From Stenotrophomonas sp. 364 (GTDB taxonomy: Bacteria > Pseudomonadota > Gammaproteobacteria > Xanthomonadales > Xanthomonadaceae), in contig NZ_CP047135.1 in assembly GCF_009832905.1 (NCBI RefSeq), forward strand, positions 2,582,001 through 2,646,000: a DNA stretch of 64,000 nt, read 5' to 3'. Made by a program: the position numbers and the translations under genes. The notes beneath the pieces are model-generated. The model made no database searches. It was not told the DNA's origin and saw only the letters and a program-made list of their open reading frames with translations. This document shows, piece by piece, positions 6,831 through 8,315 of this stretch (positions within the stretch are counted from its first letter, which is position 1; the number at the start of each line of letters is the position of its first letter).

Positions 6831-7145
6831 TCAGCCGGCCAGCAGGTCGTCGTATTCCTCATGGCGTTGCATGAAGGCTTCGGCATAGGCACACGCCGGC
6901 ACCACCTTGTATTTGTGTTCGCGCGCATAGCGGAGCGCCACCTTGGTCAACTCCCCTGCGATGCCACGCCCCTCGATCGGCTCGGGCACCTCGGTATGGG
7001 TGATGACCATGCGCTTCTGTCGTTTCAGCGACTTGATCTGGTAGTCCAGCAGTGCCAGATGCCCTTGCACCCGGGCCTGGAACCGGTGGTGGGCCAGATC
7101 GTGCTCCACCTCGTATGCCAATCCGGGCGGGGTGACCGAAGCCAT
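6831..7145 (-). CDS. YjdJ/NATD1-type GNAT N-acetyltransferase domain protein
   Basis: 104 residues, the size of the minimal GNAT proteins of COG2388. The core motif EPIEGRGIAGELTKVALRYAREHKYKVVPACAYAEAFMQRH has the Q/RxxGxG/A-type acetyl-CoA loop (GRGIAG). The C-terminal Cys-Ala-Tyr segment is typical of the family. The substrate is unknown. The start at 7145 is set by CAGGAGAC nine bases upstream; the in-frame extension to 7358 would run into the promoters of the divergent gene and is rejected. Confidence 0.85.
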   Translation of the reverse strand: MASVTPPGLAYEVEHDLAHHRFQARVQGHLALLDYQIKSLKRQKRMVITHTEVPEPIEGRGIAGELTKVALRYAREHKYKVVPACAYAEAFMQRHEEYDDLLAG

Positions 7146-7252
7146 GGGCGGTGTCTCCTGCGGCAACTGACGCGATAGTGCGCAGCGTAGCGCCATGATC
7201 GCGTGAAGTCTGAACAGGGGCAAGCAACGACGCGGAGCGTCACAAACCGTCC

Positions 7253-7279
7253 TAAAGCTCTGCCGATTCAAGCCGATAT
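7253..7279 (+). promoter_or_regulatory. FliA (sigma-28) type promoter
   Basis: TAAAGCTC (7253-7260), exactly 11 bases, then GCCGATAT (7272-7279). The consensus is TAAAGTTT-N11-GCCGATAA, so the match is strong in both boxes and in spacing. It lies 79 bases before the ATG at 7359 and points at that gene. Confidence 0.8.
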
Positions 7280-7303
7280 CGATAACGGACAGGGCGTGAA
7301 AGC

Positions 7304-7318
7304 TGGCACGAGTTTTGC
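7304..7318 (+). promoter_or_regulatory. RpoN (sigma-54) type -24/-12 promoter
   Basis: TGGCACG (7304-7310), four bases, TTGC (7315-7318). This matches the invariant GG and GC and the spacing of sigma-54 promoters. Transcription would begin near 7330, about 29 bases before the ATG at 7359. Confidence 0.8.
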
Positions 7319-7358
7319 GACACCTGCCTACCCGATCGTGCTTCACAAGGAGGTCCAC

Positions 7359-7535
7359 ATGGACAACGCACCTACCTCCCCCGCACCTGGCGATGCCGAC
7401 AGCTCGCTGCTGGAGGGCTTGTTCCAGCTGGCCGTGAATGGCCAGACCCAGAGCTGGGAATTCGACCAGATCGACAACGAGGTGTATGCCCGCCTGCTCA
7501 GCGCCTACGGTGCGGAAGGCAAGAAGGCCGCGTAA
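7359..7535 (+). CDS. 58-residue protein under FliA/RpoN promoters
   Basis: A small acidic protein, MDNAPTSPAPGDADSSLLEG..., with a central segment NGQTQSWEFDQIDNEVYARLLSAYGAEGKKAA that predicts as two short helices. It has no signal peptide, membrane segment or motif I recognise. The start is secure: AAGGAGG lies five to eleven bases upstream. Two tandem promoters in front of it, one sigma-28 and one sigma-54, are those of flagellar or other motility genes. No flagellar gene lies nearby, so it would be an outlying member of the regulon. Its function is not known to me. Confidence 0.8.
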   Translation: MDNAPTSPAPGDADSSLLEGLFQLAVNGQTQSWEFDQIDNEVYARLLSAYGAEGKKAA

Positions 7536-7544
7536 GCGGCCTGT

Positions 7545-7565
7545 GTCACGACCAGCGGTCGTGAC
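7545..7565. repeat. SMAG-like palindrome (GTCACGACC subtype)
   Basis: GTCACGACC-AGC-GGTCGTGAC, ten bases after the 58-codon gene. Two further copies flank and enter the end of lacI near 34.8 kb. Confidence 0.7.
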
Positions 7566-7691: not shown

Positions 7692-8315
7692 TCAGCCCAG
7701 CGGACGGAAGCTGGGGTTGCTGAGCTCGCGCAGGAAGTGCTCGAAGATCGCCGGGCGCATCGCCAGCAGGAAGATCACCCCGAACGCGGCACCGGCCAGG
7801 TGTGCGCTGTGGTTGATGCGATCACCGCCGCGCTTGTCCATCCAGATGCTGTAGCCCACGTAGAACACCGCGTAGAGGATCGCCGGGGCCGGGATGAAGA
7901 ACACGAAGATCACGCTCCACGGGCTGAGCAGGATGAAGGCGAACAGCACCGCCGACACCGCGCCCGACGCGCCCAGGCTGAGGTAGTTCGGGTTCTTCTG
8001 GTTCTTCAGGTAGCTCGGCAGGATCGACACTACCAGCGCCCCCAGATAGAACGCCGGGTAGGTCAGGTAGCTGCCGGTCAGGTTGATCATCAACGACTCG
8101 ATCTGGCCGCCGAAGAAGAACAGCGTGATCATGTTGAACGCCAGGTGCGCCAGGTCCGCATGGATGAACCCGTAGGTCACCAGACGGTCGTACTGGCGAT
8201 GGCGGTCCACCGCCGGCGGCCACAGGATCAGGCGGTCGCCGAGCTTTCGGTTCTTGAAGGCCATCCACGACACGATGACGGTGATGGCGATCAACAGCAG
8301 ATTGACGGGGGTCAT
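7692..8315 (-). CDS. Rhomboid-family intramembrane serine protease
   Basis: 207 residues with about six hydrophobic segments. The catalytic dyad is visible: Ser117 in LGASGAVSA and His172 in HSAHLAGA. The HxxxN-type segment HADLAHLAFNMITL and the following GG are also conserved. Rhomboids cut transmembrane helices of other membrane proteins. The start MTPVNLLL at 8315 gives a normal first membrane helix; the upstream reading from 8372 would overlap the preceding gene. It starts 8 bases after the stop of the POT transporter gene, so the two are probably cotranscribed. Confidence 0.9.
   Translation of the reverse strand: MTPVNLLLIAITVIVSWMAFKNRKLGDRLILWPPAVDRHRQYDRLVTYGFIHADLAHLAFNMITLFFFGGQIESLMINLTGSYLTYPAFYLGALVVSILPSYLKNQKNPNYLSLGASGAVSAVLFAFILLSPWSVIFVFFIPAPAILYAVFYVGYSIWMDKRGGDRINHSAHLAGAAFGVIFLLAMRPAIFEHFLRELSNPSFRPLG

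Follow-up and report, generated by a model that had tools for sequence, protein, structure and literature searches.

A 58-codon gene behind sigma-54- and sigma-28-type promoters in Stenotrophomonas sp. 364, a candidate link between pilus and flagellar programmes

Layout of the locus

We analysed a window of 64,000 nucleotides (positions 2,582,001-2,646,000) from the 4.84-Mb single-contig genome of Stenotrophomonas sp. 364. Between positions 7200 and 7540 of the window, direct reading of the + strand gives, in order, a palindrome, a sigma-28-type site, a sigma-54 site, a Shine-Dalgarno sequence and a 58-codon reading frame. The palindromic box (7229-7243; GACGC-N3-GCGTC(AC), with GGA as N3), absent from the description in an earlier note on this DNA, occurs in many genera, is common to pilA and is a candidate PilR site (UAS). 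Next comes a sigma-28 (FliA)-type promoter at 7253-7279, TAAAGCTC-N11-GCCGATAT, with elements at 7253-7260 and 7272-7279 that are conserved in relatives. The sigma-54 (RpoN) -24/-12 promoter at 7304-7318 reads TGGCACG-N4-TTGC (GG-N10-GC), its elements lying at 7304-7310 and 7315-7318. The ribosome-binding site AAGGAGG (7347-7353) is placed five bases upstream of the ATG at 7359, and the gene (7359-7535) ends with TAA at 7533-7535; its reading frame is kept across the family. All these features are on the + strand, and the reading agrees with the earlier note, which had placed both promoters and the ribosome site before the gene.

The left neighbour, encoded divergently on the - strand (6831-7145), is an open reading frame for a GCN5-related N-acetyltransferase (Pfam PF14542). 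To the right is a convergent rhomboid-domain gene (7692-8306, - strand, start codon uncertain; Pfam PF01694). On the 4.84-Mb chromosome the 58-codon gene lies 0.79 Mb from fliA (2.59 Mb vs 1.80 Mb), a distance that, as measured to fliA, fits the earlier statement that flagellar genes are far away. A perfect 9-pair hairpin without a T run is present at 7545-7565, just 3' of the stop codon. It is a possible terminator between the convergent genes, and the folding of the region is ordinary (z -1.0).

The gene and its family

We identified the gene in 113 of 297 genomes of the bacterial family by single-sequence search and in 156 of 297, from 24 of 54 genera, with a profile built on 30 relatives. 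Of the 156 genomes found by profile, 116 had their upstream regions analysed; these orthologues share ancestry and counts among them are not independent, and a second, named collection of 69 loci partly overlaps the 116-genome set. A rhomboid relative is found within the same ~3-kb locus in 115 of the 116 and an acetyltransferase relative in 111. Profile searches extend the family to Lysobacter, Luteimonas and Marilutibacter. The closest Stenotrophomonas-named relatives, including S. rhizophila, have 90-91% protein identity, and homologues can be aligned down to 26% identity. Most differences from four close relatives (L295-L298) are third-position changes, with pN/pS of 0.08-0.15; in comparisons with five relatives at greater distance, pN/pS is 0.42-0.55. 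This is a true gene under purifying selection.

The earlier note called the gene an orphan. The term holds insofar as no Pfam or NCBIfam family was assigned to the protein, which had no Pfam match at E values up to 1; it does not hold for distribution, given the orthologues counted above. A Pfam search with 30 family members gave four weak matches (best E 0.017), none of them FlgM, by a profile matching whose reach ends short of very distant FlgM kinship. Among the matches listed, named database relatives are "hypothetical" or "uncharacterized", except P0169, a "conjugal transfer/entry exclusion protein". No database relative among the matches listed (in one search, 120 of 385) has a Pfam domain, and one match labelled Burkholderiales among those 120 of 385 is a metagenome bin.

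PilT and RpoN are near universal, each scoring above its cut-off in 293 of 297 genomes, so missing pili do not explain the absence of the gene from about half of the genomes. The four genomes without RpoN also lack the gene. Within the genus, G029 is the sole one of 17 Stenotrophomonas genomes without it in the profile search, and its rhomboid locus (L364) has no gene relative, no box and no sigma-54 site.

Several database entries deserve comment. A 93% identical copy with both promoters occurs in L295 (JAHREJ010000018.1), titled Bacillus subtilis SK7B5, an assembly that is probably mislabelled or contaminated. Two adjacent family matches in one genome (G172:C10:1186896-1187333) may be a tandem duplication. 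Versions of 98-110 residues (P0122, P0144, P0002) probably result from start codons called too early, with translation reading through the promoter region.

The sigma-54 site

A site was counted when it had invariant GG and GC, agreed with the consensus at 9 or more of 11 letters and lay 40-120 bases from the start codon. By this measure a sigma-54 site is present at 91 of the 116 orthologous loci, compared with 127 of 5800 shuffled upstream regions (2.2%), and is lacking at 25. Seven loci, including that of G155, have neither promoter. In the named collection the score reaches 9/11 or more at 67 of 69 loci; the remaining two (L338, L344) are short loci unsuited to the fixed window of the script. 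The pattern TGGCAYG-N4-YTGC occurs 29 times in the Stenotrophomonas sp. 364 genome, compared with six for the reversed control pattern. Genomes that carry the gene and lack FliA were picked by hand from best E-values, and some are incomplete; of these 27, 26 have the sigma-54 site and 22 the palindromic box. The 27th (G155) has a 9/11 site too near the chosen start. From this conservation, sigma-54 control of the 58-codon gene is almost certain.

The palindromic box, pilA and PilR

The palindromic box was derived from the gene's own orthologous upstream regions, where it precedes the sigma-54 site in many genera. Among the 29 sigma-54-like sites of the Stenotrophomonas sp. 364 genome, only two have a palindrome of at least 13/15 within the 220 bases upstream: that of the 58-codon gene (distance 62) and that of the pilin gene pilA (distance 101). 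The other 27 score at most 11. The pilA product starts MKKQQGFTLIELMIVV and is a type IV pilin by Pfam. The gene lies between PilB, with two more frames intervening, and a GspF/PilC-family gene; beyond PilB come genes for a sensor kinase and for a sigma-54 activator of the NtrC type. PilB scored above its NCBIfam cut-off, while the kinase, regulator and PilC scored above none shown. Named from their neighbourhood alone, kinase and regulator would be PilS and PilR.

We scanned 10 genomes for the palindrome GACGYNNNRCGTCAC and found it at 45 places, compared with 70 for the reversed control pattern. Since the control pattern is the more frequent of the two, the palindrome says little on its own; it gains weight when paired with a sigma-54 site. 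Among 30 of the scanned places, downstream sigma-54 sites of at least 10/11 belong to the 58-codon gene (G000, G044, G287, G099) and to pilA (G000, G250), and further such sites belong to a spore-coat-U-domain gene (G099) and to one place in G117; the remaining places score at most 8. At 12 further places the downstream score is at most 8/11. The last three are a repeat of the G250 pilA and the 58-codon gene in G117 and G250, in both of which the palindrome is followed by a sigma-54 site of at least 10/11. The spore-coat-U-domain gene (L205, G099:C1:102719) has this palindrome too, followed ~128 bases downstream by a sigma-54 site of 11/11, and is a possible further PilR target. The domain is presumably of the chaperone-usher pilin type.

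Upstream of the best pilin locus (a fixed 340-base stretch), a palindrome of at least 11/14 is present in 16 of 21 genomes, compared with 65 of 2100 shuffles. By eye, a GTGAC-type palindrome can be seen upstream of pilins in 17 of the 21, and the pilin promoters of G287, G285, G251 and G211 have no clear box. A matrix trained on 18 pilin boxes exceeds the 99% shuffle level at 60 of 99 loci of the 58-codon gene outside genus g18, at none of the 17 loci of g18 and at 3 of 17 in g7. These training boxes were selected by inspection once the palindrome was known; thus, the comparison of 29 sigma-54-like sites in the Stenotrophomonas sp. 364 genome is the cleaner test.

Distances between box centre and promoter cluster at 38-41, 49-51, 58-60, 69-73 and 80-85 bases in 55 of the 59 loci with both elements; the outlying values are 91 (once), 130, 149 and 151. 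The phase is concentrated, with R of 0.65-0.68 over the 59 loci at periods of 10-11 bases and 0.55-0.67 when each of 12 genera contributes one value. In L295 and L296, both close relatives, the box sits farther upstream by 93 bases, about nine turns. Helical phase between box and promoter is mostly kept, the behaviour expected of an activator that faces the polymerase. The sharing of the palindromic box with pilA, near PilS- and PilR-like genes, suggests that the box is bound by PilR, which is probably the activator of the 58-codon gene.

The sigma-28-type site

A sigma-28-type site is present at 49 of 116 orthologous loci and in none of 5800 shuffled upstream regions, so that this promoter, like the sigma-54 site, is conserved beyond chance. 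The loose pattern AAG-N14-GCCGATA occurs 19 times in the Stenotrophomonas sp. 364 genome, compared with eight for the control. The loose pattern alone is weak, as counts from two Xanthomonas-type genomes indicate (29 vs 15 in G285; 15 vs 15 in G250). The T of TNAAG is present in 12 of the 19 sites. Five of these 12 precede genes with Pfam matches to CheW, MotA, a ParA/MinD type, CheW plus receiver (CheV) and the MCP signal domain. One more frame behind a TNAAG-type site (L284) has no Pfam match; the Pfam scan covered L284 and the five motility genes among the 12. Since the same motif stands before five motility genes, the sigma-28-type site represents the local late-flagellar promoter type.

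The site is limited to genera g1, g2, g7, g18 and g44. It was identified in 49 of 89 orthologue genomes that bear FliA vs none of 27 that lack it, and genomes of g11 and g17 with FliA have no such site at the orthologous locus. Among relatives the spacer has diverged and both elements are kept. The distance to the sigma-54 site is nearly fixed, at 47-52 bases across orthologous loci. Very probably the FliA promoter at 7253-7279 is real in the Stenotrophomonas sp. 364 genome. A FliA-type site was also found before a gene for a small secreted-looking protein in two Xanthomonas-type genera (L188 in G285, L189 in G250), possibly a further late-flagellar gene.

Promoter history across the family

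Genus g18 is Xanthomonas sensu stricto, as identified through L349 (X. populi). There the sigma-28-type site is present at 16 of 17 loci and the sigma-54 site at one, where it is weak: in Xanthomonas sensu stricto the FliA site has been retained, and the sigma-54 site is gone from most loci. Across the family, sigma-54 sites occur in nearly all deep branches and sigma-28 sites in the crown alone. The rhomboid tree, weakly resolved, is consistent with this distribution. We infer that control by PilR and RpoN, the type IV pilus system, is ancestral and that FliA control was added in the Stenotrophomonas-Xanthomonas crown.

The earlier note wrote of two flagellar-type sigma factors. This applies to FliA, the motif being that found before the cheW, motA, cheV, MCP and ParA/MinD genes. 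A flagellar nature is unlikely for the sigma-54 arm, because its site is kept in 26 of 27 FliA-less genomes and the box is common to pilA. Membership of a motility regulon, also proposed earlier, is supported by conservation and by the elements common to known motility genes; the earlier note had named disappearance of the two motifs from near relatives as evidence against it, and on inspection of such relatives we found the motifs kept. As judged by eye, FliA-bearing genomes mostly have two copies of RpoN and FliA-less genomes one, with exceptions. This pattern would fit one RpoN for pili and another for flagella.

The protein product

An AlphaFold2 model of the 58-residue protein has helices at residues 10-26 and 33-51 (mean pLDDT 79), and the protein is predicted to be a soluble helical hairpin, a fold too widespread to indicate function. 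The protein is acidic (9 D/E, 3 K/R), and no signal peptide or membrane helix was found when the sequence was read by eye. Its C-terminus is KKAA. An Ala-Ala end is present in 62 of 116 orthologues vs 2 of 40 control genes (long, unannotated frames picked by codon composition); it is rare in g11 and g17 (2 of 17 each). Of 70 more distant proteins, 64 end likewise. Some ClpXP substrates have a C-terminal Ala-Ala degron (PMC7652416, in excerpt). Instability of the 58-residue protein through this end is a tentative reading of its sequence. A soluble hairpin, two motility promoters and a frequent degron-like end are best read together as a transient regulator or adaptor. Thus, we infer a short-lived role of this kind; that the protein is a regulator or adaptor of motility at all has, in our judgement, slightly less than an even chance.

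Alternative explanations

The gene could be purely flagellar, its sigma-54 promoter driven by FleQ or a FleR-type activator. Its FliA-type promoter does occur in five genera and in FliA-bearing genomes only, and flagellar genes of Xanthomonas oryzae need RpoN2, FleQ and FliA (PMC5550985, in excerpt). However, 26 of the 27 FliA-less orthologue genomes retain the sigma-54 site and 22 the box, which in the Stenotrophomonas sp. 364 genome is common to pilA, and we consider the explanation improbable. We give equally little credence to the idea that the sigma-54 promoter alone is real and the FliA-like motif is some other conserved site, such as one serving an activator or the divergent gene. The tight spacing of 47-52 bases from the sigma-54 promoter would suit such a site, as would the FliA-bearing g11 and g17 genomes that lack the motif and the unenriched loose pattern in G250 (15 vs 15). 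Against it, in g18 the motif is kept at 16 of 17 loci despite a sigma-54 site at only one and a box at none, both of its elements are kept across a diverged spacer, and the same motif precedes five motility genes.

Other alternatives accept the promoters and concern the product. A protein built into the pilus or cell surface, or accessory to it, would be in keeping with the pilin-type co-regulation of the 58-codon gene, and pilin-responsive hypothetical genes of P. aeruginosa have been proposed as unrecognised contributors to pilus or motility (PMC6058289, in excerpt). Such a role is unlikely, though less so than the two explanations above, for an acidic protein (9 D/E, 3 K/R) modelled as a helical hairpin and, as read by eye, without signal peptide or membrane helix. 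That the functional product is the transcript, a small RNA or leader, is very improbable: the transcript is short and a 9-pair hairpin follows the stop, though with ordinary folding (z -1.0), but third-position changes dominate, pN/pS is 0.08-0.15 in four close relatives and homologues can be aligned down to 26% identity.

Proposed role

On balance we favour, as the whole explanation, a small protein of the cytoplasm that belongs to the motility regulon, is controlled by PilR-RpoN plus FliA and tunes or couples pilus and flagellum. In Pseudomonas aeruginosa, PilS activates PilR when pilin runs low. In Stenotrophomonas sp. 364, PilS-activated PilR would bind the palindrome at 7229-7243 and contact RpoN-RNA polymerase at 7304-7318 over ~6-7 helical turns, with transcription starting ~12 bases past the -12 element. 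FliA-RNA polymerase would provide a second, later start from 7253-7279, so that the protein would also be made in late flagellar assembly. The helical hairpin probably binds a partner protein, and in many lineages the Ala-Ala end would hand the protein to ClpXP, so that it would be present only as a brief pulse. Acting as regulator or adaptor, the protein would tune or couple pilus and flagellum function.

Judging by its promoters, the protein appears to be co-expressed with the pili used for twitching and, in part of the genera, also with the flagellum used for swimming, and it may be a link between twitching and swimming. A doubtful, more ambitious joint reading is that of a family-wide, undescribed, short-lived linker, a helical hairpin pulsed by PilR and sigma-54, secondarily recruited by the flagellar system through sigma-28 and cleared by ClpXP, that couples twitching to swimming, at a locus where control would have passed from sigma-54 to sigma-28 via a two-promoter intermediate. 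The 58-codon gene is a concrete candidate for joining the pilus and flagellar programmes, and the palindrome is put forward as a PilR box that can be tested across a bacterial family, pilA included. The fixed locus also offers a natural series of sigma-class change, from sigma-54 only, through both, to sigma-28 only.

Comparison with known systems

Like the Ala-Ala substrates of ClpXP (PMC7652416, in excerpt), the protein has an Ala-Ala carboxyl end; unlike in ssrA-tagged substrates, these residues are encoded in the genome and form a candidate degron. With the late flagellar FliA genes cheW, motA and cheV the gene has in common the same promoter motif in the same genome. It differs from late flagellar genes in lying 0.79 Mb from fliA, in being present also in FliA-less genomes and in having a FliA-type site confined to few genera.

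FliTX of Xanthomonas oryzae belongs to an operon with fliS and flgZ, lies upstream of rpoN2 and is controlled by RpoN2/FleQ and FliA, according to excerpts of PMC5550985. It is likewise a small protein with sigma-54 and sigma-28 control. Compared by gene position, FliTX lies beside fliS and rpoN2, whereas the 58-codon gene stands alone between acetyltransferase and rhomboid genes. By position, then, the gene does not fit the FliT/FliTX chaperones, for which a flagellar-cluster place beside fliS and rpoN2, as in that source, would be expected.

Further parallels are with pilus regulation. Twitching of Xylella requires pilR (PMC9956873, in excerpt). In P. aeruginosa, the targets of PilR include pilA as well as hypothetical genes, with a flagellar link through fleSR, as described in excerpts of PMC6058289. 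In common with that PilS-PilR/RpoN regulon are a sigma-54 promoter, an upstream site common to pilA, hypothetical genes co-regulated with pilin and a regulatory link between pilus and flagellum. The sites themselves differ: P. aeruginosa PilR sites have TGT-N11-AGA and GTCT elements in the excerpted account, and the box here is GTGACG-N5-CGTCAC. The P. aeruginosa link described there runs via fleSR, whereas in Stenotrophomonas sp. 364 both promoter classes stand before one gene.
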